Source: Apostichopus japonicus
Lineage: Eukaryota; Echinodermata; Holothuroidea; Aspidochirotida; Stichopodidae
Reading direction: 5' to 3'
Assembly: GCF_037975245.1 (NCBI RefSeq)
Contig: NC_092564.1
Coordinates: 15,131,984 to 15,195,983, forward strand
DNA length: 64,000 nucleotides
In this document: piece by piece, positions 855 to 31,300 of the stretch
Layout of the letters: the number at the start of each line of letters is the position of its first letter
Numbering within the stretch: position 1 is the stretch's first letter
The notes under the pieces: model-generated
What the model was told of the DNA's origin: nothing
Seen by the model: only the letters and a program-made list of their open reading frames with translations
Database searches by the model: none
Program-made: the position numbers and the translations under genes

Positions 855-3800
855 TCAATCTTCCGTCTTTATTATTTTATCAGTGTACTCTCTGAGAATT
901 TTCTCTGCTTTGTCTCTGTTACATAGAAGGGTTGCCTTCCCTTGGTATCTTCCATTTTTGAATATCCCTTTACCCTTCAGTTCCTCTTCAATCCTGGTAT
1001 GAGGCAAACAAGGAGGGAGAAAAATAACAGTAACTTGATCGGTTATAAAGGTTCGAAGGTAGGATAAGTCTTGAAATAGTTTGCTTATAATTTGGCTTAT
1101 AAGTATAAGTTATAAGTAAATAAGTTATAAGTTATAAGTTGGCTTATAATTATTCACAGTGAACTTCTACATTTTGTTTCAGCTTATACAGAGATGTTCT
1201 TCATTACTTTGGTAAAACAAGTGTGTTGACTGGCCTAGGGATAAATGGAAAAATGTTCTTGTCTCAATGATGGGGGAGGGGGAGGGGGAGGGGAGGGGGA
1301 TGGAGGAGCTGTAGTCATGCAGTCAATGGTGCTTGTGGACTTATGCTTGGGTGGCAAGGAGTGGCATACAGTGACCCATGTCTTGAGAGCACTTATGGCC
1401 AGCATTTGTCAGGAGCTCTTTTGTTTTTAATTTTTCGTTCTTTTTAAACATGACATATAGTTGAAAATTTGTCTGCTGTAGCTTTTGTCCTTGTGTTTAA
1501 AACTTTTGCAACAAATTCTGAAATTTTATTCTGAAATTTTTGATGGGATGTCATGAAAAAAGCACTGTCAAAATTCGGATGTAAGACAAATACGCTGACA
1601 ATAGTTTCTTTTGTTGAGAGCAAAGAAACGGCCTTGAAGTAAATCATTGCAGTGTATGATGTCAAGGAACATTAGTTCTGTGATTTATGACAGTGCAGTA
1701 ACTGGACGACAGTAGGTTTGGCGTTACTCTTTACAAAGAAATCATATCAATCATAACAAACCCTTTTTTTAACTTTTCAAGGATAATTTAAGGCTCCAAC
1801 ATGCAAGGATATTTTGGTTGAGGGTAGATCATGATACAAAGTTATACATACTGTAGCTATGGTATATTTGCTCAAAGGAAAGAACGTGGTTTTTTATTTT
1901 ATTTTATTATCACAACCATCCCTTGACTGTAAAGATTGATTCAAAAAACAGTTTTTGAGAGATGAAAGCAAAATGAAAGGAAATTTGTTTGACAGTGGCA
2001 AATGTGGGTAATGTTGAAATTTTACCGAATCTTGTCAACAACAAAAAAGAAGCAAGCTTTTGAAACAACCACTCCAAACGTATCCCTTGTTTAATTGGCT
2101 ACCAAAGCATCTTCCTGTACAATGTTTATCACATATCACAAATTTTGCCACATGTGACAATGTGAAAGCAAATGAATACAATAAATCTATGCAATTTCTC
2201 TAAACAGCATCATATATAGTTAACCAGGGAAGTCATTTTCAACTTACTTTGGTCCAACCTCAGAAACGATTTCTTCTGGACCAGCCACTAAGAACATACC
2301 AGAGGCTTTCTCATCACCGACAGAGAGCATCATCAACGCATTCTAATGTGATCAAAGATATGAAAAATGGCACAGTGACATTTACTACTTTTTTGGTAAA
2401 CGAAAATTACTTCTTTTTGTCAGGGTTCTTTTGAGGCCCTGTTTGAGCAAATTCTCTCCTTCATCCAGACTCTCCATTAACGATACAGAGTTCAATGGGG
2501 ATTCCCTAAAAATTGATTCATAACTACATTTCTGTTACTGTTAAGTACTTGGGACCCTACTTGAGATCAAATGACTCGTGGCCTAATTAGTCTCGCTACC
2601 GAATAAATGGAATGGACTTGAGATAAAAATGACCTGCACTTTGACATAACACTAGTGACTCGTGGCCTGATCAGTCTCGTAACCAAATTAATTGCATGGA
2701 CTTGAGATCAAATCACCTGCATTTTCACATAACACTAGTGACTTGTGGCATGATTAGTCCTTGCAACCAAATAAATTGAATGGACTTGAGACCAAATAAC
2801 TTGCACATTGACTTAACACTTGCGACTTACAGCCTGACTTACAAATCTTTTTTACAAATGTATTTCAAAAGTAAAATGAACCCACTGTGATTAAAGAATC
2901 ATTGTCAAAGTTCAACTGCCAGAATAAAATTTGCCCACTTGAACAAATGGAACCCACCAAGTTGTTTGATTATATGCATTAATACCAAAATAAACTTTGT
3001 GTTCAGATACTTCAATACTCCAGAAATACTTAATACAGTTCTATGCATTAATATTAAATACACTTAATTAATAACCTGTCTTAGTATTCCAGGGAAACTG
3101 GTCAATCATCTTAATGCTACAACAAATATGTGCAGCTATATGCTATCATACTCCAGACAAAATCTGTAATTAACTGCCTATTAAAAGCGTTATGTTGAAA
3201 TGCTATGATAGTCCAACATAACTGTACGGTTATATGCTTTCATACTCCAAGGGCACATACCTGACATCCTATCTATAGTCCAACATAACTGTACGGTTAT
3301 ATGCTTTCATACTCCAAGGGTACATACCTGACATCCTATCTATAGTCCAACATAACTGTACGGTTACATGCTTTCATACTCCAAGGGCACATACCTGACA
3401 ACCTATCTATAGTTTAACATAACTGTACGGTTATATGCTTTCATACTCCAAGGGTACATACCTGACATCCTATCTATAGTCCAACATAACGTACGGTTAT
3501 ATGCTTTCATACTCCAAAGACACATATCTGACATCCTATCTATAGTCCAATATAACTGTACGGTTATATGCTTTCATACTCCAAGGGCACATACCTGACA
3601 TCCTATCTCGTTTGCAACCATGTTTAAGAATTCGCTGTCACCATCTTTCCGATGTAAACAGAAAACTGGATCTCGCTCGGGTTTATTGAGATAACGTTGA
3701 GCTTCTAAAACTGCGATCTCCCTCAGAAGGAGGAGGTTGGTCTGTAACAGAGAAAGAACACATTTAATTTGAAAACCTTCAATATACCTGAAAAGCTTGA

Positions 3801-6800
3801 CTTGCCACCAGAAAGTTTGAAATATGCAATCATCAATTAAGGGTCAATTACAATAAATTGCATGCTACTATCAAGTGGTCAAATCTTGAATAAGAAAAAA
3901 ATCATAATTTCATCTTTGTTTTGTTCAATGGTCAACTGTTTCATCTCAAGAAATATAAAGATAAGTTATTGTTGTTTTCTTTACCGTTAGGTTTTGTTAC
4001 TACGGAACAGCAAAATGATACCAATGTTAAGAAAATCTTTTAAGGATAATTAATTAATAACGTAAAATCTTAATTAATCTGCCTGATGATTCTAGATTTT
4101 TATTAAGAACAAAGTAAGTAAGCTACACACTAATTAGGGCCTAACATATGCTAACCCTTTTCATGAATTTTTTGGTGATCAATGATCCCTACCATGGTTT
4201 ATTTAAATTTTCATCACAGCTTGATTTATGCTGCTAAACTATAACCTCAAACTTCTTAAACACCTCATACTTGCATATTAAAGTCTCATCTTTGTGCATT
4301 AGTAGATCCAGGCCTAGTTATAATATACAGGATATAATAATAATAATAATATACAGGATAATACAGGATAATATACAGGATATAATATACAGGATATGAT
4401 ATATGATCTCAATGCCTCTGTTAAATTGCAATGAAAGGTAGGTTGGAATATTACAAGCACAGGAGTATATTGTAATACAAAGAAACCTGTCATAAGAAGT
4501 TATGAAAATATAAAAAATAACAAGTGTTCAAACTTAGGACTTTCTTCTGTATTCCTGACTCAACTTCGAAATTCAAGAAATTTCAAGACCACGAGAAGAG
4601 GTTTACAAGTCTGTTTTTAAGCTTTCGTGACCTATCCCTGTTCTCCAGACACGTAAGAACCTTGATTTTAAATTCAGGGAGTTTGTTAATCGTCGCACAA
4701 ATCCTTGGTATAATGTGACTCTAACACTCACTGACCTTGTTGGTAACTTTCAATGTTTTCTGCTGTTTCTCTACTGCCTGAGCAAACTCTCCCGGTCCAC
4801 ACCTAACAAAACAAAAAAACATAGATATGATTATGCCTTTTAGGTATATACAGGTACCTACTTTTACTTACAATTACATATTGTTAAGGGTGAATGTTAC
4901 ATAACTATGCAAAATGTGGCCACAAAAAAAAAAATCAATTTTTAAATTCATGCTGTTTTGGCATCTTTAATGTCTCCTGAACCCATTCCCATTGACACGT
5001 TAGATTGTATTGGGCATGTTGGGAAAAGAATGTTTAGGGAATTAGATAATTTCAGGAAAACAAATAAGGGTAAACTCTCTCATGGAAAAACTGTGGGAGG
5101 AGGGAAAAGGATGGTTCCTCCTAAATAATTGGGAATTACTTCAACACTCTTGAACAAGCAGCCAATGCTTCCGGATTGAAAATGAAGGTATCTTCCTACA
5201 TTGTTTATATATACATATAACATATATATATAACACATTGTTTATGTATATAATATATATAACATTGTGCTGCATACAGTATCAATCAAACTTACTTTAA
5301 GAGCTTGTTGAGTTTCTTCTCTGTTTCGATGGTTCCTCCCAGATAACTGAGGACTCTGTTTCCAGCCAGGAAGTAAACATTGGTCTTATTCTTCTTTCCT
5401 TTCTCAGCACTGATCAGCTTGATTGACTAAGAGGGAAGAGGGGAAGAAAAGGCTGGAAAAAGAATCCAAATAGTCACACCACCAAGTAATGGGAGATAGG
5501 GATAGAAGTTGCTTCCCCATGCATGTAACAAGTATCAGAGCCACAGGGAAGGAGAAGTAGATGAACAATGTCTTTTCTTCCCATATCTAACCCCCTCCCC
5601 ATACCAAAGCCCCTTGCATACATAACCTCCTCCCTACACATAGTCCCCTCCCCATATCTATGCCCTGAGAAATTTGAATTTCATAGGAATACTTAAGTCT
5701 AAAAGGCTAAACCCTAGTTAGTTATAATGTAAGTAAAAACCAAAAAAACAAAAGGGTAACTTTTTCGTGGAAGAGAATAAAGTACACACCTGTAAATGGC
5801 TCAAGTTGGATACGTGAGTTCCGCAGCACATATTAGCTTCGATGGAACTGATCTCTACTATGCGAACAAGACCTACGTGATCATCCGGCAATCCCCTGGA
5901 ACGTATCTGAAATGGAATATTTCATAAATTTTATCATCACATGTAGCGACGTTTGGACAAACAGTTATTTAGACAAGTGTTCTCTGGGAATTTTAAGATT
6001 AAAAAAAAATTGGAAACATCTCACAGGTGGATAAAGCCAGTAACAACAGAATCATTCAAACTTTCACTATTTTTGTTTGCATCTAGAGATCATGATCATT
6101 CAAAACTTATTACCATATCTTCACAGACAGCTAAGACAACCCTTTTATGGTTGCTATGGAGACAGGTGTTCTATCTACAACATATCCACTCTCCATCATA
6201 CCAGACCTGAATTTTGGTGAAATAGCAACATCCCAAGTGTTGTATGACACAAAAGAAGAACCCATTGCACAACCTAACAACTGGGCGATTGTGAGGATAA
6301 GATGTTTCCTCAAGGGTACTGTTTATATCCAGGAACAAATTCATCAATTTTCAAATCTGCAACAGACTTCCAAATAATTAAACAAAATGACTTAAAACAG
6401 TTTTTGGCCTGACTTGAAAGTCTGATATGGGAAAAGCCATTTCACATTTGTCAAATAACTAGTTTTGATATTTTTTAACTTTGCCCTGTTGGAAATATCT
6501 AAGGAAAGATGTCAATTTTAATATGAAAATTATTTGAATATTACTCTATTTTTTTTCTTCTATCTGTCACATTTAATAATTGATGTTTTGTTTTGCCCTT
6601 TTGGAAATATTTTGCCCTGTTGGAAATATCTAAGGAAAAGATGTCAATTTTAATATGAATTATTTGAAAATTACTCTATTTTTTTTCTTCTATCTGTCAC
6701 ATTTAATAATTGATGTTCGAATACAGTTTTGCGGCTTCTTGAAAATGAATCCACATAGTTTACATTCCTATTGTTGACCTGGTCATCTGCAGTCTCTAGG

Positions 6801-9800
6801 GTGTTGCCAGTCAGTTTGCACTCAGTCAGTGTCCAGTATAACCAAGCTGTTTAATAGTTGATATTTTATAGATGAAAACATTGATAACAAACCTGTCATC
6901 AAACTAAGATTGTTATATGTCATTGATTGGCACAACTTCAAACAATTCAACATTCAATAGAAGGTTTATAAATTTTTGATTTTCATTAAAGAGCGGATGA
7001 CATTTGTCTCATTTATGCAACAGAACATACTTCACTAAAACTGGAATGTAGAGAACTGTGCTTTCATCCATTATGACATACTTCCTTTAATTCATCAGAG
7101 CCAGCATCTACCCATCTCGGCGTCATCGGCAGACATTTCCTGATGGCCTCGTTGACGTCCACCTCAAGCTGTATGAGTTGTTCATTCTTGATGGCCGGCG
7201 TGTCCATCTCTATGAAAGATTTCTCTCTCCCTAAGTCCCTGGATGGAGAAACGAACGATACAAGCAATGACCGTACAATATATATTACTAGCTCTCATTA
7301 CTCCCCGTTTTGTAAACAGTCTCGATCGTGAATCTTATTTCATTAACAGCGAGATGCAACTGAAATTTAAATCATATATTCGCCTACTTTGTGTTAAGAC
7401 TAGTCACTACATGAATATTCAGCACATACCATGATGTAGTTCGCCAACCGTACTTTTCATCTGCTATGGCCGTGATCAAATGCTGAGCTGTACCAGGATG
7501 AAATAAGAAAGAAGATTATTTTATTACAAACTAAACAAAGTTGTATAATACAGCAGTGCTAGTAGCATTGACACAATTTTGTGTACAGTAATTTCTCTGT
7601 CAGATTCAATAGCAAGTAAGCACTATGTGATCTCCATGCAAATGTACATCTGACACACCTTCATCATGAAATAACACCCTAGAGAAGCCACCATGCCCAC
7701 CCCACCCCCCTACACCACCTCCCACCCCTATATACATCCTAGTATCCAATCATGCATTTTCATCCAAGAGCTAACAAATAAAATTCTATCGTAATATGGG
7801 GAGAGCATTTGTAATATACCAGAATGCTGTTGCATGTGATCGAATCTTCTAGTCCAGTCTACGACTTGATGAACTTCCGTTCCTGGCTCCAAGTTTTCTG
7901 TCATAAAGTGGACAGCTTTATCAGCTTTACGAGTGATCCTCAGGACACTGCAGCCATTCATCTGTAATAAAACACAAGTGACGGGGACTTGCTAGGTAGG
8001 TTTGCTCTTCCTTGCACCAGATTTGTGAAGAAGCGAATGAAACGGTATTGTATACTAAAATACCACTTTCAGGAAGGATCGTGCAGACTAAGGTCGAAAC
8101 TATACATAAATCCACAGACATTACACAGGAAAGAGAAACTCTATTCATCTTTGTAGCTTCATTTTCCACAGTTTCTGAGATTCACTTAATCCATACAGAC
8201 AAAGATATCGAAACAATTCCTACTCTCAGTGACTTGCACAGGATATCCCAGGTGGAGGACGGGTGTGGATGGGGGTGAGTGTTGGGGGATTCAAAATTCT
8301 TCTGACTGGATTGGCAGTGGCATTAACCTTTATGGATGAGCTGCATGTGCATCAAAAGAACTCTGAATGAGGTGTGTGGCTGCGGGGTCTGTGAGTGCAA
8401 CTCCCACCCCTTGTAATGGGGGTCTGTGGGTACTCCACCAAGACACAATTTTGAAGTAAAGATGTCAAGTGGTCCATTCTGAGGCATATTTGGACAATAA
8501 ATAAATAAAAAGATATACTTATTATTTTCATTGGGACAGTGACAAGTGAAACCCCTTCTCCCTGGGAGCAATTTAGAGAGAGCACTAATTTCAAACTCTG
8601 TAAAATAAACAAGATGATCAGTACTCACAGTTCCTCTGTCATCAGGCTGGGAAGAGACAGAAAATTTGCAAAAGTCAGGTTACATAATCAAGAAAATGAT
8701 AAAACCAAAAAACGCTTACGCGTTATAAATTTCGCAGTAAAACAAATATATCTACATTTGTGTGATACTTTGAAGTTCATTCAATGTTTGAAATGAAATG
8801 GAAAACACACAATATTGTACTGAACTAGTAATATCTGGCTATGATATAAAGTATGTAAGAAAGACAGATATCAGGCATTAAAAGTTAGTTGCTGTAGTTG
8901 CTATTACACATGTAACAATAATTTCAACCTAATCAGAAAAGCCACCTTCATCTCTACTATCATTTTCAACTGTAATATTTATTTTGGAAATGTGTGGAGC
9001 AAATAAACTGATTTTCAAAATCTTTATAGATGGTAAATGATGAAAACCTGAACTTGTCATGTGCAGCATAGCTCCATCTAGCCTGTAAATTTTTACTGAG
9101 CTGATTTCACTCAACTGTTTCAATGCTGGCTGCTATGAAGCACTGTTTGTTTGTGCTGCAAAATATTTTACAGTGTGAACTCATGCACCATTTAGAAATT
9201 CTTTCCACAAAGGTTACACAATGACCAAAGAAATTAAAGTCCGAAGAAGATACAGAACTTTTTTTTTTTGTCAAACAGGATGTAATCATCAGACAATGGT
9301 ATGTAAAAGAAGCTGAACAAAGACAATGAGAGGACTTCGAGGTATTGTTCATGAAACTAACCTGACCACCTCCTTCTGGGAAAAGCACGGTGTCATCACA
9401 GATAACGTCATAACCAGAAATCTGTTCCTTCTTGCCGTTGTTTACAATCTTCAGCTTTGAGGGTGTACAGGAGGCAACTTTTGTATCAAACTAGGTAAGA
9501 TATGTAGAGAGTAACCACGGTTACAATGCAATTCATTTCAAGGTACAACAGCAAATTTTTCCCCAGAAATAAAAAATATAAAAGGAAATGAAAAACAAAA
9601 AAACTAAATGGAAAATTATACTAAATGGAAAAGAACAGAGAAGTAAATGGATGAAATGGGATTTGAACCAGTGACTCATTTGAATCCCATTCTAGGGCTC
9701 CATTAATTTTGTCATATTTTGGAAAGTGTGGACCGCAAGTGCTTTCAAGTAATTGATACTTGGATAAAAGTACTTGACTACAACATTGCTATATACATAG

Positions 9801-10941
9801 CCATTTTAAGCTCGGGTTATCAGTCACAAGCCACAGCCCCTTACATCCTGTCTAGGTTTCTTTGCTCTTTTCCATTGTATATCACTGTACTTCTCAGTCA
9901 GTTTTTCATTCTTCATTTACTTGTATAATGTACATAGATAGCTGAATTTCTCTCAAAATGCCCTCACTGAGCTGCTTTCTAGATTGCATCAAATGAAACT
10001 TGGATCCCTAATTACATGGTATGCAAGATTTTGTGGCTGGCAACATGCCCGGCCGGAAAAGAAATGGGTATAGGGATTGCCACCAACTAAGAGCTACATA
10101 GCTCAGTTGGTGGAGCAATGGGCTTGTAATCCAGAAATCACTGGTTCAACCCTGTTCTAAACATAAATTTCTGTTCTTTTCCAAATATGAAGTTGATATG
10201 AAATAAACTACAATTACATCTCTTTTTTGCCTTATTGTTGCTCCTTCTTGTCTGTTTTTCATCATTCAATAATTTCACGGTATGTAAATAGAAAATAAAT
10301 AATAAGGAGACTTCCAGTTACCATCAAGTTTTTGGAACTAGATTTTTATCTTGGTCAAAGTACTTGATTCTTGATAAAGTGTTCCAAACTAGGGCATTCA
10401 ACCATCATCCTTGAAAAAGAGAACCACCAAAACACTGAAAGGTCCCCAAAATTACAACCCTCTCTTGACATGCACAGTATTGTAAGCATATATGCCTAGG
10501 CCTACATATCCACAGTCAATATCCAAGGTATCCACAGTCAATATCATATTATGTCCCCATGTCACCTATCGTTAATTACATGTTACATTAGCTGAGACAA
10601 AAACACTGTACATTTCGAGATAGTGCTACGGAAGATGTTTTTTTTATTTAACAATCAATACAATTCAATAAAAACTATCAGATATGAGACGTATCCTCTT
10701 CCATGGCTGTACGTGTGATCATAAATATCAAAAATATCCTGTTGACTGTAATTCTATTTACTTTCGCGGAATCGGTACTAGGCTATGATTCTTCAGAGAG
10801 AAACTTGCTAGTGTACAATAATAAGATAAACCTACATTTTCACCCTGATCTTATCCAAATACTTGATACATTCCAACACAAGAAAATCAACCAATAACTT
10901 ACCTCCCGTAGGTAGCTATCTTTTTGGCACTGAAAGGACAT
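855..10941 (-). CDS. AARSD1: Alanyl-tRNA editing protein AARSD1 (AlaX type), 12 coding exons
   Basis: Stand-alone editing enzyme that hydrolyses mischarged Ser-tRNA(Ala) in the cytosol. Coding exons, in transcript order: 10941-10903, 9490-9362, 8646-8629, 7961-7820, 7487-7430, 7238-7082, 5906-5790, 5426-5296, 4802-4736, 3741-3595, 2342-2248, 993-855. All junctions are GT-AG and the phases join to 1239 nt, giving 412 aa, the length of the human protein. The start reads MSFQCQKDSYLRE. Zinc ligands are visible as HSAQH (His108, His112) and CCGTH (Cys208, His212), and the editing-fold FPEGGGQPDDRGT motif lies at residues 50-62. The C-terminal part, from about residue 265, is the AARSD1-specific extension with the LHRKDGDSEF motif. 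Exon 3 is only 18 nt. Exon 10 ends inside a minisatellite that repeats its splice donor. Exon assignment is by reading conserved protein motifs, not by transcript evidence. Confidence 0.95.
1083..1150. repeat. TTATAAG short tandem repeat
   Basis: Imperfect copies of TTATAAG and CTTATAA in AARSD1 intron 11. Low-complexity sequence; no function is suggested. Confidence 0.6.
1264..1300 (+). other. G-run tract, G-quadruplex candidate
   Basis: Five runs of four or five G separated by single A, in AARSD1 intron 11. The G-rich strand is the non-template (plus) side relative to this minus-strand gene's RNA, so the pre-mRNA itself carries the C-rich complement. A DNA quadruplex is possible. Confidence 0.5.
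2560..2840. repeat. 84-bp degenerate minisatellite, about 3.3 copies
   Basis: Copies share CTTGAGATCAAAT and GACTCGTGGCCT, with the second motif starting near 2573, 2657, 2740 and 2824 (steps of 84, 83 and 84 bp). It lies in AARSD1 intron 11, and the copies differ at many positions. Confidence 0.8.
3205..3608. repeat. 67-bp minisatellite carrying copies of the AARSD1 exon 10 splice donor
   Basis: About six units of 66-67 bp. The motif CTGACATCCTATCT starts at 3261, 3328, 3395, 3462, 3528 and 3595; the last is the real exon 10 end. Read on the minus strand, each unit holds the final 14 nt of the exon followed by GTATGT. One copy (3528) has lost the GT through a C-to-T change; one (3395) has an AACC variant in the exon-derived part. 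Extending the exon past the true donor meets an in-frame TGA after six codons. Confidence 0.93.
4320..4395. repeat. ATACAGGAT short tandem repeat
   Basis: Irregular copies of TATACAGGATA with an inserted (TAA)n run, inside AARSD1 intron 9. Confidence 0.7.
5200..5272. repeat. AT-rich low-complexity tract
   Basis: TATATA-type sequence with two copies of an ACATTGTTTAT-like motif, just downstream of exon 8 within AARSD1 intron 8. Confidence 0.6.
6480..6718. repeat. 131-bp direct duplication in AARSD1 intron 6
   Basis: The block starting TTTGCCCTGTTGGAAATATC at 6480 recurs at 6611 with few differences, ending TAATTGATGTT both times. A partial third start (TTTTGCCCTTTTGGAAATAT) sits at 6592. The high identity suggests a recent duplication. 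Confidence 0.88.
9640..9710 (-). mobile_element. tRNA-related SINE fragment (inverted partner)
   Basis: On the minus strand this reads TCACTGGTTCAAATCCC, a T-arm/B-box-like motif, then TTCTCTGTTCTTTTCCA. The same order of motifs is found on the plus strand at 10130-10185, so the two are diverged copies in opposite orientation within AARSD1 intron 1. Confidence 0.4.
10091..10185 (+). mobile_element. tRNA-derived SINE-like element
   Basis: An A-box-like TAGCTCAGTTGGTGGAGCA is followed by an anticodon-loop-like CTTGTAA (TGT, threonine type) and a B-box-like GGTTCAACCC. The outer ends do not pair as an acceptor stem, so it is better read as a tRNA-derived retroposon or tRNA relic than as a working tRNA gene. 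The tail TTCTGTTCTTTTCCA is shared with the inverted copy at 9640-9710. Confidence 0.5.
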
Positions 10942-11379
10942 CTTTTCTAACAAAACTTGGACTTGATACCGTACTGTATGTGTTAAAATCGCAGCAAAGT
11001 GTTACAAATTAGAAAGGAACTGTAATCTAGTATGGAACGCGAAATTTCCACTGCTACAGGCCCTACAGGAGGTCACTCTGTGCCTTGGCATGCATTTATT
11101 GGACTTCGATCGTTGTATGTGACACTAATATTCAAACACGATGCTATGTTTACGAAAGCTCAATATTCGCACTAAGATGAACAATTATGAATTGTGTATC
11201 GTGCAGGTTTCATAAAATTCTCTTCAGTGTGCTACGAAAGAAGAAATCACTCCCCTATCAATTTTTCAAACTTTTTAATAGTTGTATGTATAATGCACCC
11301 AATCACAGTTAAAGTAAGCAATAGTAATGAATCTACCAACACAGAAATATTGATAATAGACATGTAGAATTATAAATAT
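10942..11379 (-). promoter_or_regulatory. Compact LACTB 3' end / AARSD1 promoter interval
   Basis: Only 438 bp separate the LACTB stop from the AARSD1 start, with both genes on the minus strand. The interval must therefore hold the LACTB 3' UTR and the AARSD1 5' UTR and core promoter. No TATA box can be assigned with confidence. Confidence 0.5.
11095..11100 (-). terminator. Candidate LACTB polyadenylation signal AATAAA
   Basis: The minus strand reads AATAAA about 280 nt after the LACTB stop and about 155 nt before the AARSD1 start. The position is sensible; cleavage has not been shown. Confidence 0.35.
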
Positions 11380-12947
11380 TCAGTGTAGCACTTCCCGAAA
11401 AAGTGAGATAATTTCAGAAGATATATCCTGAAGATCTATGAATTCCAAGTTCACTAGAATGGCAGCTGTTACACCGCGAAAAGACTTATTCTGGATATGT
11501 CCCGTCCCGTATGGTTTAGTAGAGATAACGTTGCCATCAATAGTCAGATCTTCGTCTTCCATTGCAATGTGTACCACTGCTCCTATCCCAACTCCACGTC
11601 CTGTGTGAAGTACGTGATGGATAGGTCTGAGACTGTCTCCACGAAGGACAGTTTCCTTGTATGAAATACAGCCCAAACCATGCAGCCCGGATGAACTCAA
11701 TACATCATTATATGGTGTCCATAAGTGCCGAATGGTTTCCGATTTGAAGAAACTTTTACGATGTTCTACGGAAGATAATTGGGGATTCAAACTAAACGTT
11801 ACTCATAGTAAGTACAGATTTAAAGGTCATCAGGTTTCGTCGGCAAATTTTAGCTTGATACAAAAGTTAATTAAAGATTTAAAAATTTAGTTTCTTGAGA
11901 TTAAAACCCTCTAGTGTATGTTCTAAAGTTTTCCTCCCCAGACATTGATTTGGTGATAAATCGGAATCTTAAACGTATTAGAGAAATGATATTCATATTG
12001 CAGAATAAAATGCTTTATGAAATTCGTACCCGGACAGGGGGAGGCGGTGGAACCGGTGATAGCACAGTCTGTACTTCCACCCCACCCCCCCCTCCTCCAA
12101 GATTTTTCAACAAAATGCCCCTTTTGGATTACATTACATAATCCTTTTTTGTTAGTAAAGAAAGCACTTTTACCATATTTTTATTAAATGAATAGTGCAT
12201 TCTGTTTATTTAGAAGGTGCACTTTTGGAGAGGAATAAACCCAAGTGTAATTAAGAAGTGTTGTTTGGTTAAACACATTCATTTAACATTTCGTATCAAA
12301 ATGGGGAATTACACAAATCATATGTGTTCAATTAAGCTAAATTCATCCCTTAAGATCATTTCAGCATATCCCAGAAAGTTGTTAAAAACATTCACTTTAT
12401 ACGTTTAATGAACAATTTATCATTTTGGGAGCAAAATCTCGAATCAAATTGGGTAGTTGATCAATTAAATAAATGTATGATGTATAAATTGATCAATTTC
12501 TGACAACTTGTTACCATATTATAATGAACAATTACTCATTCTGTTGAAAATAGTTAATATATGAGAAATCACGGCGGCGCTATAACGTTACTAGATGATA
12601 AATACCTTTATCTGGAGAGGAAAAACAACTCTCAATCATGACGTCAGCCAGATGTAGCATGTCCCTGACATTGCTCATGTAACCACCTGACGCAATCTTC
12701 CATGAACGATCCACATACGGTGCATTCATCAAGTTGCCCTTCTTGTCACGAAAATAACAGCTACAGAAAATATTATAAATATTAGGTAATTTAGGTTAAA
12801 GTTTTTATGGAATATACTTATTCTTTACAGTATCACACCTAATAACAATTTTCTTATGTCGTGCATGAAACGTATCATACAAAATGACACACACACATAT
12901 ATATATGAATTTATATATAAATGAATTTATATATATATGAATTTATA

Positions 12948-12994
<47 letters not shown>

Positions 12995-16196: not shown

Positions 16197-16201
16197 GTAT
16201 A

Positions 16202-16260: not shown

Positions 16261-16261
<1 letters not shown>

Positions 16262-16900: not shown

Positions 16901-16904
16901 TCAT

Positions 16905-17092
<188 letters not shown>

Positions 17093-18059: not shown

Positions 18060-18240
18060 GACCGCAGTGGTTCGCGCGAAAAGTTTTGTTTTGGTTTGTG
18101 GTTTACATTCAGATTTCACGTGCGTACTGAACAACGTCTAACGTTAGTCTATACTTCTACGCTAAAACTCAGAGCTGAATAATACTGAATGTTTATACCA
18201 CAGGGGTTGCTATTCTTGTACACCTGATTGTAATGTAAGT
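18060..18240 (+). promoter_or_regulatory. Candidate ATIC promoter with E2F-like palindrome and E-box
   Basis: A locally CpG-rich patch holds TTCGCGCGAA at 18071-18080, which with the following AA reads as an E2F-type site, and the canonical E-box CACGTG at 18117-18122. Donor-like AAT|GTAAGT (near 18235) and CAG|GTAAGT (after 18499) could end 5' noncoding exons that splice to an acceptor-like TTCTAAAAG before 19299. It lies between divergent LACTB and ATIC and could serve both. This is inference from motifs. Confidence 0.4.
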
Positions 18241-19364
18241 ACACTATGTATACAAAGTAGCCTTAATTGGGTGACATTCTCAGCAACTAGGGACTTCAAT
18301 CAGATGTTGAAGCCAATTCCCTTCGCTTGTCCCCCTGTCATTTGTCAGTCACACTCCTCTTACTCGTCACGGCCTAACAGTTAGCCTAACACTACAGTAA
18401 TACTGCAGTTACTATCAACCGAGGTAATAATACTATTAGCCTTATTGAGGTCGTAAGTTAGGTTAGTCTTTAAATAAACGTAGGCTGCTGAAACTTCAGG
18501 TAAGTACAGGCACAACGTAACTGCAGCCAACTGTCTTACTTGTTAGTATTTATTATCTTTTATTATTGTTTTTTTCTACTCAACCTAGGCTACCCTATTA
18601 CTTAGGCGTAACATTAGTAACAAATAACATTGAGGCTAGGCAACATAGCCTAGGCCAGGACCAATTTACTGCTCTCGGTATTGTAATTGAAACACAACAC
18701 AGTGTTGACCTGGGATCATTGGTGAACGAGGCCTAGTTCTGTTTCTTTTTTTTCCTTCTCTTTTGGCACAAAATTCAGCACATAGTACTAGTATTAACCT
18801 TTTGCAAAGTTAGGTTAGGATAATGTTTCTCCACATTTAAATTGGCTACTAGCATATTGTGACCACAGGCCATTCCAAGGTATGCTACACAGTTTTGTGT
18901 AAATTAATTGTCACACTTGTAACGTTACCATGAAGCGCAAGATGGAATTAACACAAGGGCGTAGGCCTAAACAAAGGGCTGGCTATACAATTAGTTCCCA
19001 ATAAATGAAGTGGGTTAGTCAAAAACTTTTGGAAGGTATGAAGTTTTGAAGTAAATTTAGAACTCTAGCTGATCTAGTGTTCCAGGGATTTAGCACACAC
19101 AATCAGTAGACCATGATTTCTTTAAAAACAGGACGACTCTTGAGAGCGAGAGATATGGCAAGCCATGGTTAAGCAGTGCACTTAACACTAGGGCTAAGCG
19201 AGTTTAATGATAAGAAGGCTAATAGATCTAAGAGTAGATTTAAATGTAAGTTTAGCTTTAAGTAAGATTGATGAATTATTGTTTTTCCCTTCTAAAAGCA
19301 TCTTCACATTCATTTGGACTGAATTTCATAAGGGCCTACAATAAGCAGACAGCAACATTAAGCA

Positions 19365-22300
19365 ATGGCTTCTCAAGAATTAGGTGAGTTTTTGTCATCA
19401 AACAGAAAATCATATCGTTTTGCCATCAAGAGAAGTGATGTCATTGTAGACAGCTCCTTGTTTATCTACAGTGAAATTGACCATTTTTTTATAAATCATA
19501 ATAATATTAATGGTTATAGCCTATAGATATATTACTATGATCCACCTGGAGAGCAGTTGTCTTATGATGCTAAGCAGTCAAACATGCATGTTTGTGACAC
19601 AAATGGCATGTAAGTAAGACCTCCAGTAAGGTGGCTATCCACTTTACAGTTTTATCTACATCTGCACCACCCTACTCGTTTTACCCCTTTTAGGGGAGTT
19701 GAGTAGTATCACTCCAGATCCAGATCACTCCAGATCCAAATCTAATATTTGTTTGTTTTAAGAAGTCTGGGATCGAAACCACAACCGCCCAAATTCTAGT
19801 TGCATTGCTTCTTATGCCTCCACTTTTATCCATGCAAGCGTAGCGCGTTTATAACAGATATTTTTCTATGACACAGAAAAATTGCATAGGAATATGCAAG
19901 CTGAATGACTTCTCACGCTTCCAATTTGTCTCTGTGGAAACCATTTAATACAAAACCTTTTATGAAAAAACATGCTTTGTCTGCAATCTAAAGTCATTCA
20001 TTCTAAAACTTTTAATTTGCCTTGTATAAAGCATTTACTGTCATTTCTTTCAGCAATCTTGAGCGTGTCAAATAAGGAAGGCCTTGTCCAATTTGCGTCC
20101 GGTCTACATCAGGTTGGCCTGAAGCTGATTGGATCAGGAGGTACAGCCAAGGCCATCAGGGCTGCTGGGATTCCAATCAGGTAGGTGGTCAGCTTAGTTA
20201 ACACACTGCAGGCAGGCATCTGGCCAGTTACATACTGCAGGCAGGCATCTGGCCAGTTACATACTGCAGGCAGGCATCTGGCCAGTTACATACTGCAGGC
20301 AGGCATCTGGCCAGTTACATACTGCAAGCAGGCATCTGGCCAGTAACACACTGCAGGTAGGAATCTGTCCAGATACATGCTGCAGGCAGGCATCTGGCCA
20401 GATTATCAACATAATTATTTTGAATGGTCGTCATAGTTATGTCGTCTTGGTATTATTCTATCCAGTTGGAATCAATACTATAAGAGAGTGCCTCTGAAGC
20501 TAATTCATTCCTCTCATACATGTCGTTTACAAGGTTAACAGACTATTTTTGATGAATGCATAATTGTAGCACTATGTTCACGATCCTATATCACTGCTAA
20601 CAATTTTTATTTTGTACCTGGAGCATTCCTGTGTTAGGTGTCTTAAAATCCTGGTATTCAAAGTGGGAGTTGCAACCTTTTTGTAGTGTTAAAATATATA
20701 TTGGCGGGTCAACAACAATTCTGCAGAAATTGTTTTCTTTTTCTATATTTGTGGAAAATTGATTTTTTACACTAAGTACCCTTGATCATATAAAAAATTG
20801 CTGAAAGGTTAGAGGGGCACAGTTCCTCCCGAGAGCCTCCTGTCGGGTCACAACATCTCACTGGAGATGATGGAGGTGAAAATTTTGGGTCACCAGTGAC
20901 TTAATAGTATTGGAAATCTAGAATCAGCTGCTTTTTAATTACATTCAATATTACTCTATTCACTTTGACCTGCGGATTCTTACCCTTCTAGAATAAAAGT
21001 TCTTGTCGAATTTCCCCTCAAAATGTCCTTAATATTCTGTGGATGTTTATATAGATCTGTGAAAAGTTTGTTCCATCATTCGGTATATTGAAGGGAAGAA
21101 CAGCATGCAAAAATGACTATTCTACAGAGATTTGATTGAATGTATGTATTTTAGATCCTCCTGCAAGCAAGAACTCACGAAGAAGCCATTATTGGCATAT
21201 CAAAGCCGCAAGCTGACAGAAGTCAGTCTCTTAGATTCATATTTAACGTCCATGATTATGAATTGTCCATTGTTAACAACTTTGTAACTACACAACATAC
21301 ATTTCTCTTGGAGTGACTCGAACTTGGGACCTACATACTAATTATAACATACTAATTATATTTCACAGTGATGTTGGTGATGTCACAGGAGTAGCTGAGA
21401 TGTTGGGAGGAAGAGTGAAGACCCTTCACCCAGCCGTGCATGGAGGTAAATAATTCACTTTGATGTTCTTTAATAAGAGGGTGTAATCAAAACACAGAAC
21501 ATATCACTAAAAGAACAAAAACATCTACCTGTTTCTCCTTTTGATATTTAGCATTATCCTGGTGTCACTGATTTGAAAATAAAAGATAATATTGTTTACT
21601 TACAGTCAGGTGGTATCTATGTTTATTTTTTACCCCCTTATCTGAGTGCTTTCTCCTTTTTTCTTTCCTTTTTCCTGGTGTAAAGGAATTCTCAGCCGGA
21701 AGACTGAAGAAGATGCTGCTGACCTAGCAAAGAATAACTACAGTTACATCAGGTAAGGATTGGTTACCATAGTGATCGATGCATCATGAAAGGCAATGTG
21801 GAATTATTAATGTTATGGAACTTGTGTGATGCTCACCAGGGCTTCAGCCAGATTAAGATTTAATCAGGTGAAAAACACATACATTGTGGGATCAGTTCCT
21901 CCTTAATTTGTGCAAATAAGACAAGGCACATTTTGGGGTCAACGTCAATGACAAAATATCATTTAAGCGGTTTAAAAACCAATACCAGAGTCCTACCAGA
22001 AGACTGTAGACTCTGGGAATATCATATGTGACATATTCACATTTAAATTTAAGTTCATTCTTCGCCTTTCTGCGTCTTAAATTAGTAGCAAAAGTTATGA
22101 ACCAATGAAATTGTATGTTGGTGAAACTTTGTTTGATTATCCAGTACACACTTAACTGCTTGTACATTAATCTATGAAGGATTCAGAGAGTTTCAAAGCT
22201 TGTGTGACGAGGCAATATATGTCAACTCTTAAATGTCACAAGTATTGCCTCAAAATTTGAATTTGCTAATAAATGACGAACTCCCAGACATTGAGGAATC

Positions 22301-25300
22301 TTTAAACTAGACAATAAGATGTCTCAGTGAGGAAAATCGCCTGGAAACCATAGTAGCACTGATTTCGATTTACCTTTATTTGACTTTGAAGCATATTTGG
22401 TGGCAAAACATTTTTACCATTAAATGGCTTTTAAGTGTGTTGAAGGTGTACATACTGCAACATTGTCAGTATGGTACAGTGGTAATCTACAGTAACCATG
22501 GGAACAGTGTTGATGATTTTTGCTCTTACCTTTGCCTAGGGTCGTGGCTTGTAACCTTTATCCGTTTGTACAGACTGTGGCCAAGCCGGATGTGACCGTT
22601 TCCGATGCTGTCGAAAACATAGACATCGGTGAGTTCTCAAAGAGAGTCATTCCAGGGGTGTGACCCACTGAAAAACATACAGAGCTATTTTACCCGATTA
22701 GTTTGAAATAATGGCCACAGTGCAATTAAAGTTGCCGTGTCTTCAGAACAATGCTGATAAGATATACAATGCCCAATTCGCTTCAGTTTGCATATTTGGA
22801 TACGTTGTTTGTTGTACACACAGTAACTAGAAGTAAATTTATACCATGAGCCTGTCCAGATCATAGTAACTTGAAATGCTTGTCTTAGTGGTTTAGTAAG
22901 AGCAGTTTTTTTTTCTGTTGGTTTACAATTTTATCAGACCTACCAATCAGTAGTCGAAACAAGATTGCTATTTGAGCCACTTAAAATTAAATGGACACTT
23001 TTATCTCATCGCCAAGTGACGATAAATGATTAATTTCAGAAGGATTCCTTTCTTCTGTCAATGTTTGTCACTTAGATACTTTATGATGTTTCGTTTGATA
23101 ATACGTAAAACTGCAAATATGAAATTCAAGATTTTTATCCAGAATTTAAAATTTTGGCTTCAATATTTGAATTGGAAACAGACATGTCAAAGTGACAAAA
23201 GACATCGGTATGAGATTTCAGCATTAAAAAAATAATTCAAAATGAACTAAAGAAAAGTGCTTAAAACTTGCTTTACTACGTGAGCATATCAAAAGATTCT
23301 GCAAACTATAGTCTTACCTTTAAATCTTCTATCATCATTTAATAAACATCTATCCAACTATTTTTTCTCAGTTTTTCCATGTCCAGCATAAAATAGACTG
23401 CAAAAGGACTTGTTCTCTCATCACCAAGTTAGAGGTTGAATAAACTCTGTGTTATGAGTGTTAATATTTAAATAGATTTTGTGTCTCTCTCTTCCAAGGT
23501 GGAGTAACGCTCTTACGAGCTGCGGCCAAGAATCATCAGAGAGTTACAGTGGTCTGTAATCCTAGTGATTACACAACGTAAGTTTCTCCAAACTCTCATT
23601 GTACTACGTGTTGACTGCTGCCCTCTCTGCTATGATTTTTGATTTCTTGCCTGAGGATCATGAAATCTCCAAGTCTGTGTGTGTTTGTGTGGGTATCATC
23701 ACTCTAATGACTGTCACAATGTTACAGCTGTGTTAAATCTATTATCTTATGTGTGGACAAACCTCTGTTAGTACTAGAAGTCTTGTGGTCAACCAAAGGA
23801 ACCTTAGGCCAAGTCCAAATGGAATGAGCATTGTACTCAGAAGTACTGTATTGCCTTCTCAATGCCTTCTCAACCAAAGGAACCTCAGGCCAAGTCCAAA
23901 TGGAATGAGCATTGTACTCAGTAGCATTGTACTCAGCAGTACCTTATTGCCTTCTCAATGCCATATTAAAGTTGTACTCACTAATCAAGTTCAACGTTTG
24001 AACTTTGAAATGTTCAAACACTTGAAATGTTGAAGTCAATTAAGAATGCTACAAAAAACCTTTGTTCTATCTATAGGGCCCTCGATGCTCTTTAGTTTAG
24101 GTAACTTACCTCAGATTTGCAAGGGATAATAACCCAACTGGACACTGCTTTATAATATGATGATAGATAGATAGAAACTTTATTGTCCATTCCAGAAAAC
24201 AGAAAACGGAAATTATTTCCCATGGACAGTAAACATAAAACAGTAGTGAATACAAACACAATCATACAATAAACAAACTATAAGTGAACAGCTACGAGAA
24301 TAAAACTAAATAAGCAGAACCAGAACAGTAACAGAGGCAACATGATGGAGTACATTGTAAAGAACGACACTCTAATATCACCAAGTCATAACTCTCACAA
24401 TTTTATTGTTATGATTTTTAGTTATCACTAAACGTATGAATACAGTTTTCCTAACTAAATTAACAGAACAGTCAACGTAGGTTAAATGTCCCTTTAGATC
24501 AGTGTTCCATCAAACATGAAGATGTATTTTCCAATATTACTATGAAAGTAAGAGAGGAAATTTTCAGAGGTTGGTGGTGTCGGATTTAATGCATACATGG
24601 TTAAATTAGCAAAATGTTTTGTTTTTTACAAGCTATGACAACACGTAAGTTCTTTTATCTTCATAACATGGTGGGGCAAAAATTTGGTCATCTTGGTTTC
24701 ATAGAAGTTGTGTAAATTCCGTGCCCAGTATTAGGGTTGTTCCTCAAAATAATTTTCATTTTCATGATATCTTTCTCATTTCAGAATCCTGGACGAGATG
24801 AGAGCTAGTCCAGATCGCGACACAACCCTGGAAATGCGTCAAGCATTAGCTGTTAAAGTAAGCTGGATTATCAGCAAAGAGGGGGACTTTATTTGAAACA
24901 TACACCTTTAATCTTTTCTCTATCTCTCTCTCTATTCCATTGTCTCATCAATTGGTAAAGATGAAAGAAGCACAGATGGATGTGATTTGTAATGCTATAG
25001 GAGAGAAACTGGATAATCCTGTCACTGCTGTTGGAAATTCATTTACAGTCAATTTGCAGTAGAAACAACCATCCTTTTTTAAATTCATTGTTATCACATG
25101 GCTAAAAAAAAATAGAAGAAACAGCCAAATGATAACATCAGATGATTTTAAATGAGTAAACATCGTGGTCATTGTCTGTGTTTATAGTGGCTCATCCAGA
25201 CATTGAAACAATTCATTTATGCTGTCATTTTTCTCGTGTGTTTCTTCATCCAGGCGTTCAACCACACTGCCTTGTACGATTCCGCCATCTCAGACTATTT

Positions 25301-28300
25301 CCGTCAGCAATATTCCGCCGGGGTCTCTCAACTCACCCTCAGATATGGAGCCAACCCCCATCAGAAACCAGCTCAGCTGTTCACATTCGAACCCTCACTC
25401 CCCCTCAAGGTGCTCAATGGGTCGCCGGGCTTCATCAACCTGTGTGACGCCCTTAACGGCTGGCAGCTGGTGAAGGAATTGAAGAAAGCTTTAGGATTGC
25501 CTGCAGCAACTTCATTCAAACATGTGAGCCCTGCAGGTGAGATTCTATAATCTCTTCTTAGAATACAGCAGTGAGAGTGTGGTCCCTGTTTGATCTTCTT
25601 GTATAGCAAAGAGAGAGCTGTGGTGATGCAAATTTGCAGTGCAAAGTAAACTATTGGATGGGGGAGGGCTTGATGGGGGAGGGGGAATCAGGAGTTTTTC
25701 TAGTGTCACCAGGATTCATTATCTCTCTTTTGGTGGTAATTCAAACAAACACTTTTTCTGTATCTTGGGAGTTATCAAGTTGGAATAATTGTCACTTTTC
25801 CAAGACATTGCCAATTTTGATAAAGTGAGAACACTGTTGCCATTTCAGTCGAGGACTTGTTTCTTTTACGATGACAGATTTAGTGATTTTCCTTCCTTTT
25901 GACAAATTGTTTACAGGAGCCATGATCATTTGAGTTAAAATGGTTCCATTTTCTGCAAAGTTTTGTTCATTATAATCATTAGCTGTGTTCAAGGTTATTT
26001 GGAAGCATCATCCTGTTAATCCTTACAACAAAAATTAGTAACATTTTAAAATATTTGATCCTTTCTCTGCTCATAGGAATCTGTGATACAATTGCAAATT
26101 TTGCGTACAACTGTTTCAGAGACTTTCTACACAGTTGTCCGAAAGAATGTAACTCAAGTTTGTGATCTTAACTCTCTCTCCAATGTCAGAGTCATGTGTC
26201 ATGATTTTTCAGCTGTTAACAAATATCATCTCGAAGCATTGTTTAACTTGAAAGTTTGGTTTGACCAGGTGTGAGTCACGAATTATGTCTGCTCATAGGA
26301 ATCTCTGATACAATTGCAATTTTGTGTACGACTGTTTCAGAGACTTTCTACAGTTTCCACAAGAAAGTAACTCAAGTTTGTGATCTTAACTCTCTCTCCA
26401 TTGTCAGAGTCATGATTTTGAAGCATTGTTTAACTTGAAAGTCTGGTTTGACCAGGTGTGAGTCATGAATTATGTCATATCCGTCTTGTACAGGTGCCGC
26501 AGTGGGGGTCACCCTGAGTAAAGAACACGCCCAAGTCTGTATGGTAGATGATATGTTGGACAAGCTTACGCCATTGGCTACGGCCTACGCTAGGGCACGA
26601 GGTGAGTCTCTCTTGTGAATGGACACCATTTATGTATGCATGTATGTACTTTAGATCCTCCTGCAAGCAGGAACTCACGAAGGAGCCATCATTTGCTTAT
26701 CAATGCTGCAAGCTGACAGAAGTCAGTCTCTTAGATTCATATTTAATGTCCATGATTATGAATTATTAATTGTCAACAACTCTGTAACTGGACGACATAC
26801 ATTAATTTTGGAGTTACTCGAACTCGGAACTTATGATTGGAAGGCACCGGCTCTCTTTCTTGGGGCAATACTCTCAACAACTTTAGATTTTGGCTGGAAG
26901 TTAGTTTTATCTGGCCCTGTAGTGAAATATTTATCATGTCTTCTTAAGTTTGTATGGAAGATAATAGCAATATATTTTATGTGTGTTCTGAGTTAAACAT
27001 TTTTTTCTGTCCTCAGATATATATCATGTGGCATAAATGATTATTACGTCTCTGGTTCACCTTGGTGCATCCTGTTTTCATGATGTTACATTGGTGGGAG
27101 ATAATTCAGATAGCATTCTTCATCTTAATCCCATCTAGAAAGTTTTTTATATTTTTTATATATATATACATATTTTTTCTTCTTCTTTTTATTATTTTTT
27201 TTATTTATTTTTTCAAAGTTTTTGAATTTTTTTATATTATTTATCCATCCCTCAAGGTGCTGACCGGATGTCCTCTTATGGTGACTTCATATCCTTGTCT
27301 GATACCTGTGATGTTCCAACCGCAAATGTCATCTCCCGAGAGGTGAGCTTTATCAGGCTAGCCATATTTATACTTGTTAAACCACAAATGTCATCTCCCG
27401 AGAGGTAGCCATATTTACATACATGTAAAACCACAAATGTCATCTCTTGAGAGGTGAGCTTTATCAGGCTTGCCATATTTATATACTTGTAAAACCGCAA
27501 ATGTCATCTCCCGAGAGGTGAGCTTTATCAGGCTAGCCATATGTATATACAAGTAATTTGTCTTTTTTCTCTTTGCGTCTTTCCTTTGACATTTCACAAA
27601 ACTCTGCCTATTAGAATACAGATAGGATATGTTTTATCCTGGTGTTTGCTGCTCAGCATGGTGCTTGAAGTTGAGTCAAACCCCTGATTCCTGCTTTAAC
27701 ATGCTAAATTTGAATATTTATAAGAATATTTATTGCAAGGACAATGGTTCAGTTTTTTTCAGCTAACGAAATATCTACTGAATCAAGAGAATGTATGTCA
27801 TTCATCCTCACAGGTTTCTGATGGTATCATCGCCCCCGGTTACGAACCCGAAGCTCTGGCGATACTGTCCAAAAAGAAGGGTGGAAAGTACTGTGTCTTA
27901 GAGGTAACTTTGATCATTCCATCCTGAGATCTTATTTCCTGAAGGAAATGTGTGATTTTCATGAGCAAGGAGACAAAAGTGTTAATTTAAACGTTTTTTG
28001 TGAAATGTTGTCAAGTTATTCCATTTTCCCAAGATTTCCCCAAGTTGACATTACAATGTTCAGTGAAAACTCTGTATATAATAGTCTTCTTCTAGTAGTC
28101 CAGTAAAAGGTGTACAGAGGTGGGAGTAAATTATGTTTTGTTTTGTGACAGTGTAAGAAAGTTACGAGGTAATTGTAGTTCACATACATTGAAAGTAAGT
28201 CTAACTCTGGTGGCATCTACAATGACAGGATGGTAAAGCAAACGTTTGTTTTGGGTTTCAAAACAATAAAACATCATTTCAACCTTACCTGATGGTGAAC

Positions 28301-31300
28301 ATAATAGTTAATACATAATCATTTAGCCCTTTTTTCCCCCTTCCTTCCTTCTTTACTTTTACACTGCTAGATTGATCCCAGCTTCGAACCAGATGAGATG
28401 GAAACAAGGACACTGTTTGGCCTTCAGCTGAGCCAGAAGCGAAACAACGCAGTCATAGACAGGAAGCATTTTGAAAATGTCGTAACTGACAGGCATGAGG
28501 TAAGTAGTGACAACCCTCTGATATGGGTAACACTATGAACAGAATTTAAAGATTTGTCTTGGTAAGCACCACTAGATTTCTTTCTGGGTTTGTTGGGTTG
28601 GGGGCTGGGGACAGGACTGGCTGGGGATGTGGAGGGAGATTTAGGAGATCTATGTTTGTAGTTTTATTTGTTACTATCGACAACCAATCAAAGATTAAAA
28701 TTATGTTACAAATAGGCATAAGGGTGTCAAGTCAAATAAGAATTTCTGAGATTCTGTTTATACATTTATGTAGAAGCTTTGGGTCGGCAAATTCACTTCT
28801 AGTGGGTTCTGTAACAAATTGCATAGTGTTTTTTACAGGGTTTTGAATCTTAGGTTTTGAATCAGGTCCTTCAAGACTGCTACACAGACTTTGAACTCTT
28901 TAAGTAAATCATTCCCTGCTTCTAATCTAGGATGGAGAGCTCTTGTCTTAATCTCTTCTGTCTTCATGTCCTCAGCTGCCAGAGAGTGCTGTGAGGGACC
29001 TGATAGTGGCCACCATCGCTCTGAAGTACACCCAGTCAAACTCCGTCTGTTACGCCAAGGATGGCCAGGTGATTGGAATTGGAGCTGGCCAGCAGTCTAG
29101 GATACATTGTACCAGATTAGCGGGAGATAAAGCCAATAACTGGTATGTTGAGTCTAGGGTGTGTGGGGTTAGAATTACAACCAGATTAGCAGGAGATAAA
29201 GCCAATAACTTGTATGTTGAGTCTAGGGTGTGTGGGATTAGAATTACAACCAGATTAGCAGGAGATAAAGCCAATAACTGGTATGTTGAGTCTAGGGTGT
29301 GTGGGATTAGAATTACAACCAGATTAGCAGGAGATAAAGCCAATAACTGGTATGTTGAATCTAGGGTGTGTGGGGTTAGAATTATAACCAGATTAGCAGG
29401 AGATAAAGCCAATAACTGGTATGTTGAGTCTAGGGTGTGTGTGATTAGAATAACAACCAGATTAGCAGGAGATTAAGCCAATAACTGGTATGTTGAGTCT
29501 AGGGTGTGTGTGATTAGAATTACAACCAGATTAGCAGGAGATTAAGCCAATAACTGGTATGTTGAGTCTAGGGTGTGTGTGATTAGAATTACAACCAGAT
29601 TAGCAGGAGATTAAGCCAATAACTGGTATGTTGAGTCTAAGGTGTGTGGGATTAGAATTACAAATGGAATGTGGAGACTTTCTTTCTCTTTCTATTACTA
29701 GAATTAGTCTGGGATGAGGAATTCCTGGTGAAACTGGTGGCATTTGAAGTTGGGGGAAGGGGTGGGGGTGGGGAAATTGGGGTAAAATAGAACGGGTTGT
29801 TGCAATTGGTATTTACATTCTTAAAGTCTACAAGGCATATAACCTCATTCAATGTTACATATGTTGAATTCTTAATTGATATGTAAGTAATTTGTATGGA
29901 CCCACATTTGAAGTATCTCACGTTGTTACCTTCAGTGCAGTAAGAGAGAAACAGTATAACATGTGTCTTTTCGATATTTAATATCTTATAAACACTCTGG
30001 AAAAACAATGATTGAATCGGTCATATCTAGAATTATCAAGAGAAATTTCTGCTCAAAAAATGTTTGTTTTGAGTTGAGTAAAAATCATCACAGTTGACTA
30101 CAGACGTATCAGCATTTACCTGGGCACCTTAAGTCCTTTTTGAATGATTGAACCTACGGTTTAACCTATGACCTATTTATGCATATCTAACGAGCAACCT
30201 TATTGTGACTCTATCACTTCTGAGTTTTGACGTGGCGATCGTTTCAAATTTGTCGGTTTGGGTTTCTCCAGTTTGCCCCGAAAAGAAGGTATTTTAGTGT
30301 CATTAGTTTGTCAAATGTTTGATTTTAACCCACAGGTGGCTGAGGCAACATCCCAACGTCTTGACTTTGAAATTCAGAAAGGGAGTGAAGAGGGCAGAGA
30401 AGGCCAACGTGATCGATGTCTACGTCAACGGCACCGTGGGTCAAGACATGCCCCGGGATATATGGGAGGACATGCTGGAGGACCCACCTAAGGACCTGAC
30501 AGAGGTATGTACAGAGGTATCAAGTGTACCTCTTGAATTAGGAAAAGTCTCCAGCACCAACATATGTATACCAAAAACAGAAAACAAAGATAATGTGTAG
30601 CTCCAACTATCTTCTTCTTAGCATCTTCCATTGCTTACATGTAAGCTTCCGAAGCAACATTATCACTACCATTTATCTAGGCCTAGATTTTATACAAATT
30701 CAGCCACTTGCTTTTAAAGAGAAGTAGGGCTTGAAAAATCTACTGGCTAAAGTCAATTTCAGGTACTGGTATTTTGCTGATCTGCAAAACACATCAGTTA
30801 CTTTATAGGCTTTTGGGAGCAGCCCAGTAATACTTGCTGATGATAAGCTGTGATACAACGCTTGAATTAGGTACCGGAATTATGAGGATCCTTTATTGAC
30901 TGACAATTGTTAACCCCGTTACCATGGGGTTAAGCTCTTAATGTCTACTGGCACACAATTGCCACCGCCATTTTTTTTTCCATGGCAAAATCCACTGACC
31001 ATTGTATTGTAAAATAGCCCAAATATTCAGGTTTTGCTTTCATCAATATATGTTTTGGAGAAACTTCTAGAAGTTGATAACTACCAGATAGATCTGCTGG
31101 TGAGAGAACTAACTAACTCATTTCATGGAGTGACACAAAGACTTTTATTGACATTTTCACTCGCTTTACATTTTAGAAAGAGCGGCAAGAATGGATCGAT
31201 AAGCTGGACGAGGTCTCCCTAAGCTCAGATGCCTTCTTCCCTTTCAGAGATAACATTGATCGAGCTCAACAGGTAAGTTGGCCTCATTTCTTTGTACCAT

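Follow-up and report, generated by a model that had tools for sequence, protein, structure and literature searches.

Background

Why should tandem arrays of unrelated sequence lie in the same manner across the 5' splice sites (donors) of neighbouring genes? The question is raised by a stretch of 64,000 nucleotides from the echinoderm Apostichopus japonicus (G000:C4:15131984-15195983 in a 671.6-Mb assembly of 35 contigs; hereafter, the window), in which exon 10 of AARSD1 and exons 10 and 13 of ATIC each run into a minisatellite whose unit combines the end of the exon, the donor and the beginning of the intron. A previous sequence-only reading of the window had described these arrays, had counted a 12-bp repeat at ATIC exon 14 with them and had proposed that a special cause acting at donors would make them a new kind of genome feature. 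The observation is correct for the three longer arrays, and a donor-specific cause is not established. The arrays are probably ordinary minisatellites that chance to straddle 5' splice sites, in a window that is a local hot zone for such repeats. This is supported by rates of self-similarity at donors equal to those at random points, by an array that crosses a 3' splice site (acceptor), by the mixed state of the copied donors and by published arrays of the same anatomy.

Arrays across the donors of AARSD1 and ATIC

The array at AARSD1 exon 10 (3208..3608, minus strand) comprises 6.0 copies of a 67-bp unit with 93% match, as called by Tandem Repeats Finder (TRF). The unit consists of 14 nt of the exon, the donor CAG/GTATGT (the slash marking the junction) and intron sequence, the last exon base being 3595. 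The donor 9-mer is intact in four of the five extra copies, and a read-through into the intron reaches a stop after six codons, ahead of the first usable decoy donor. A decayed partial copy of the unit, restricted to its intronic part, is located deeper in the intron (3120..3156, minus strand; nhmmer E-value 3.5e-4), as expected of a minisatellite turning over near one edge. Apart from this copy, profiles of the AARSD1 exon 10 and ATIC exon 13 units detected nothing else in the window above the HMMER inclusion threshold.

At ATIC exon 10 (27319..27556, plus strand), four copies of a unit of about 64 bp, one of them shortened, are anchored on the exon end. The last exon base is 27342 and the exon-anchored copies begin at 27324, 27386, 27435 and 27499, the first of them being the real exon/intron junction. 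The TRF calls (27359-27556, periods 49 and 64) begin 17 bp inside the intron, and the period of 49 arises because the second copy is shorter. Two of the three extra copies retain the donor 9-mer, and a read-through meets a stop ahead of the first full-strength decoy. The ATIC exon 13 array (29111..29663, plus strand) is the longest of the three, with 8.0 copies of a 69-bp unit at 96% match (TRF); its unit carries 32 nt of exon, the junction CTG/GTATGT and intron sequence, and the last exon base is 29142. Here, the donor 9-mer is intact in six of the seven extra copies and the reading frame remains open past the first four decoys, in steps of 23 codons, with TAA stops in copies 6-8. An insertion at this position would adjoin a very conserved stretch of the enzyme, and would plausibly harm it.

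The units of the three arrays are unrelated and share one geometry, namely the last 14-32 nt of the exon followed by the real GT donor and intron sequence, as the sequence-only reading had stated. Its description of a ladder of decoy donors was likewise borne out, the donor 9-mer being unchanged in 12 of the 15 extra copies across the three arrays. The real donors of the three exons score above the median when scored against the window's own donors. The copies at ATIC exon 13 differ at 0-5 of 69 positions only, so that intact 9-mers need no selection for their explanation.

Splice sites and samples

A total of 38 donors and 39 acceptors were placed by hand in the window, in AARSD1, LACTB and MLX on the minus strand and in ATIC and MYD88 on the plus strand, guided by homologous proteins. 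The identity of ATIC exon 13 is supported by Pfam and PDB matches and that of the MYD88 death domain by Pfam, and a tRNA_SAD domain was matched in AARSD1 exon 7. Pfam matches for ATIC exon 10, LACTB and MLX fall below Pfam's cut-off, and domain and structure searches gave no informative match for AARSD1 exon 10 itself. The exon list probably lacks one or more exons of each of LACTB and MYD88.

Two further samples were drawn from regions that had not been picked for arrays. The kinesin sample consists of 13 gene regions obtained by a Pfam search, with 46 exons, of which 36 donors and 40 acceptors entered the scoring; one of these donors, in region L026, was placed by eye after TRF had revealed its array. 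The flank sample consists of exons predicted in 200 kb of the window's flanks by a predictor of our own, which at the chosen threshold recovered 24 of 35 known exons exactly; it gave 25 matches in reversed sequence against 90 in the real sequence, so that about a quarter of the flank exons may be false. Three of the 58 flank exons were dropped as intronic copies inside a SMARCC array, leaving 55 donors and 55 acceptors. Another 50 kb of stretches (L021-L025) were scanned for arrays only. For the measure of self-similarity, the 50 bases round each donor were aligned to the sequence beyond, and a score of at least 20 of 50 was taken as a match.

Donors compared with random points and acceptors

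In the window, 3 of 38 donors, 0 of 39 acceptors and 59 of 1000 random points had a match (donors against random points, p = 0.49). The corresponding values were 1/36, 1/40 and 19/1000 in the kinesin regions and 2/55, 0/55 and 20/1000 in the flanks. There is no excess of donors over random points outside the window (3/91 against 39/2000, p = 0.43). Since donor rates equal random-point rates in the samples, donors behave like other points in the sequence. Random points within the window matched about three times as often as those in its flanks; three alike cases in one pair of genes look striking until this local density of arrays is counted. An earlier cut based on z-scores had given 3/38 donors, 0/39 acceptors and 19/300 random points in the window and 1/35 donors and 2/40 acceptors in the kinesin regions; at z above 4, with the copies inside the SMARCC array included, the flanks gave 5/58 donors, 5/58 acceptors and 20/426 random points.

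The donor consensus MAGGTRAGT occurs 26,642 times in the whole genome and its reversal, used as the control, 31,450 times. Pairs of motifs 41-71 or 72-102 bases apart were compared in the contigs C1 and C2, and clusters were counted by eye among the matches listed. This gave 20 clusters of the consensus against 16 of its reversal, or an odds ratio per motif of 1.48 (p = 0.25), with exposures that assume an even density of single motifs and with one array, at C2:15.03 Mb, counted on both sides. In raw counts of pairs, the consensus exceeds the reversal (526 against 354 and 916 against 430), the listed part of these pairs coming mostly from a few long arrays.

Several results weigh against an origin by chance. 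The 10 TRF arrays of the window (period at least 10, score at least 100) cover 3.9% of it, and their random placement crosses 1.45 donors on average; the probability that at least two donors are crossed and no acceptor is 0.035, TRF alone counting just two window donors as crossed because its call at ATIC exon 10 starts inside the intron. When all samples are pooled, 6 of 129 donors and 1 of 134 acceptors match (p = 0.062), a comparison that includes the ascertained window cases; without them the values are 3/91 and 1/95 (p = 0.36). Array units with a strong donor (score 9) are expected 0.82 times among 22 arrays in 264 kb, and the units of AARSD1 exon 10 and ATIC exons 10 and 13 all reach this score (probability of at least three, 0.045; of at least four, 0.007). 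The matrix used for the fourth such unit, of 156 bp from SMARCC, differed slightly from that of the others; the finding itself was prompted by three of the four units, and the background omitted annotated splice sites. Finally, in the 41-71 range by itself, 14 clusters of the consensus in 54 Mb stand against 31 of the control in 188 Mb, a ratio of 1.84 (two-sided p = 0.06, one-sided p = 0.046). The two motif comparisons together may reflect a modest, borderline excess of repeated donors, 1.5- to 1.8-fold.

The clusters of the reversed motif were unevenly spread among the matches listed, all 16 of them falling on C2 (32.6 Mb) and none on C1 (21.7 Mb); array content may differ between chromosomes. 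Two long arrays on the same contig, G000:C2:28048938-28050349 in 54-bp steps and C2:23925275-23926664 in 51-bp steps, have a strong donor consensus that is intact in almost all of the copies listed.

Junction-copying arrays elsewhere in the genome

The kinesin and flank samples contributed three donor arrays and one acceptor array. Two of the donor arrays belong to SMARCC. In one of its exons, at L015:3133 (107133 in window coordinates), the array consists of 26 units, each of 16 bp (L015:3132-3542, about 107132-107542). The donor TCAG/GTAAGCCATTCACC stands at its head, and GT occurs at the corresponding place in none of the 25 later units. In another (L016:1347, window coordinate 115347), units of 154-157 bp comprise 65 nt of exon and intron sequence; the donors are intact in all three extra copies, each with a C-rich run and an AG in front of it, and a read-through meets a stop soon past the donor. 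As judged by eye, a copy of this array (L016:1281-1848, about 115281-115848) begun after the second AG (GCAGAG/GAA) is predicted to form a 63-nt in-frame exon of 21 residues.

The third donor array (L026:2709-2926) crosses the donor of a kinesin exon with 1.9 copies of a 113-bp unit. Its one copied donor is destroyed, and here too a stop is met soon past the donor on read-through. In the same gene, 1.9 copies of a 168-bp unit (L026:469-786) duplicate the end of an intron, the acceptor AG and the first bases of the exon. Arrays that copy a splice junction are thus general in this genome, affect either end of the exon and occur with or without loss of the decoys. The state of the decoys is mixed over the six donor arrays, being mostly intact in the window and with all GT lost in two arrays, those of kinesin and the 16-bp unit of SMARCC.

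Probable origin of the arrays

On the reading favoured here, tandem duplication by slippage or unequal exchange would seed arrays at roughly random places in the genome. Where a duplicated segment happened to span a donor, the upstream-most copy would stay joined to the intact exon; splicing from this first donor would give a normal mRNA, and the array would be tolerated, as has been reported for some lancelet genes. Coding constraint would allow only part of one unit to fit in the exon, giving the uniform geometry and the ladder of decoys, which might thereafter persist or decay. Since the exon must remain intact, the exon end can be present only in the first unit, and the uniform positioning would need no common trigger.

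A shared physical cause, such as a fragile donor sequence or R-loops, that seeds arrays at donors was suggested by the sequence-only reading. The over-representation of strong donors in array units and the 1.5- to 1.8-fold excess of the repeated donor consensus over its reversal per motif are in its favour. However, donors were no more often matched than random points in any of the three samples, the motif excess is non-significant or borderline, and an acceptor array exists, all of which make such a cause improbable. A single cause through R-loops is rejected, as the G/C skew of four units is inconsistent (+0.33, -0.08, +0.43 and -0.14). Still less credence can be given to the suggestion that selection maintains the decoys as a means of regulating or buffering the choice of splice site, for example by increments of 23 codons at ATIC exon 13. 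The decoys of the three window arrays are indeed unchanged for the most part, and the frame at ATIC exon 13 is open through the first four of them. Against this, stops precede the usable decoys in AARSD1 and the full-strength decoy at ATIC exon 10, stops also follow soon past the donor in the 156-bp SMARCC and the kinesin cases, and the near-identity of the ATIC exon 13 copies accounts for their intact donors. The loss of GT from every decoy in two of the six donor arrays (1/1 in kinesin and 25/25 in the 16-bp SMARCC array) also speaks against it.

A selective filter is the most serious of the alternatives, although we consider it doubtful. Arrays would arise equally at both ends of introns and be purged at acceptors, with the result that donors look like random points and acceptors appear depleted. 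Splicing in general favours the first AG past the branch point; on this view, an additional AG upstream, accompanied by a pyrimidine tract, would tend to be used, whereas additional donors downstream would mostly be ignored. The pooled counts agree with this pattern (6/129 donors, 1/134 acceptors and 98/3000 random points), and the imbalance between donors and acceptors is a loose end. However, it is weaker without the ascertained cases (p = 0.36); the kinesin acceptor array exists, a weaker acceptor repeat reaches z 4.0, and lancelet globins show arrays at both ends. It is a little more doubtful still that, in this genome, a few per cent of introns carry a donor-copying minisatellite and that such arrays are almost absent from 3' splice sites. 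If this were true, the arrays would be a genome-scale footprint of the choice of sites by the spliceosome, extra downstream donors being harmless and extra upstream AGs harmful; they would offer thousands of natural experiments with duplicated donors, and the SMARCC 156-bp array, with its AG-gaining copies, would be an exon in the making.

Relation to known systems

Minisatellites that straddle splice sites have a close counterpart in the lancelet arrays already named 'mirages', whose prior description defeats the claim that the present arrays are a new kind of genome feature. The original paper on mirages is reportedly that of Canestro et al. 2002. Mirages are described as minisatellite-like tandem duplications of exon/intron boundaries, in Adh3, the globins BflGb6 and BflGb9, troponin C and PGBD5; they may involve either boundary, many copies keep AG/GT, and they show length instability with no apparent disturbance of splicing (PMC3087553, PMC3902484). 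They have also been proposed as a source of new introns (PMC3087553, PMC3902484).

The three window arrays resemble mirages in that the tandem units span an exon/intron boundary and the splice signal is repeated in the intron. In both, many copies, though not all, keep their splice signals, and either boundary can be duplicated, the acceptor array in the kinesin gene of L026 (outside the window) being the case here. The unit lengths overlap, with 10-72 bp in the Adh3 mirages and 150-160 bp in those of the globins, as against 67, about 64 and 69 bp in the window and 16, 113, 156 and 168 bp elsewhere in this genome. Normal splicing and length instability are reported for lancelet cases; the present arrays, seen in one assembly, belong to an echinoderm rather than a lancelet. 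In keeping with this, the genome strongly matches bindin, a sperm protein of echinoderms (PF02084, E-value 5e-29), for which 14 control genomes gave no match, and its listed kinesin matches all lie on contigs with numbers up to 23, as would suit the chromosome number of a sea cucumber. No such array in an echinoderm appeared among the matches listed by the literature searches. On the features tested, the three window arrays are mirages in anatomy, in a seemingly new lineage.

The creation of introns by tandem duplication of proto-splice sites is said to have been treated by Rogers (1989), Zhuo et al. (2007) and Gao and Lynch (2009). The present arrays agree with that model in that duplicated segments bearing AG/GT are raw material for introns and exons, and differ from it in that what is documented here is the arrays themselves rather than a new intron or exon. 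Human intragenic tandem repeats at exon-intron boundaries have also been tied to new introns (PMC2812944). These too add extra splice signals at boundaries; they are variable repeats of recent paralogs in segmental duplications and often lie within exons, whereas those described here are intronic but for part of one unit.

Should the 3 of 91 donors matched outside the window be a representative rate, this genome would contain many natural arrays of near-identical 5' splice sites, which would show which donor wins among equals. Such arrays could also feed new exons and introns, as has been proposed for the mirages of lancelets. Short-read junctions may mislead at such loci, since false junctions between repeats can be produced by spliced aligners (PMC10632439).

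Minor repeats

The 12-bp repeat at ATIC exon 14 (30499..30522, plus strand), which the sequence-only reading had placed beside the three arrays, consists of two copies with 10 identical bases. It was set aside as evidence, since a comparable repeat within 60 bp occurs no more often at donors than elsewhere (91 of 4000 random points, or 2.3%; 1 of 38 donors, ATIC exon 14 itself; 1 of 39 acceptors, MLX exon 5), and of the donor-spanning arrays claimed only those of AARSD1 exon 10 and ATIC exons 10 and 13 stand.

A 29-bp array (20196..20401, plus strand; TRF) begins 16 bp past the donor of ATIC exon 2 (20180) and was considered as a fourth donor array of the window, because the junction resembles the unit (CAGGTAGG against CAGGCAGG). 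The score of this alignment is reached by 7% of shuffles of the unit and also by several unrelated donors; the array was rejected as a fourth case, an origin from the donor not being supported.

In the kinesin region L033, what may be a relic copy of one donor lies some 200 bp downstream of it (score 17 of 50, z 5.5). One acceptor of the region has a repeat of score 13 (z 4.0), and both scores are under the cut of 20. At the MLX exon 5 acceptor (55128-55165 in the window), the 10 bases CAGTTTAAAG are found again 37 bp upstream, so that the repeat at ATIC exon 14 has a small counterpart at an acceptor.

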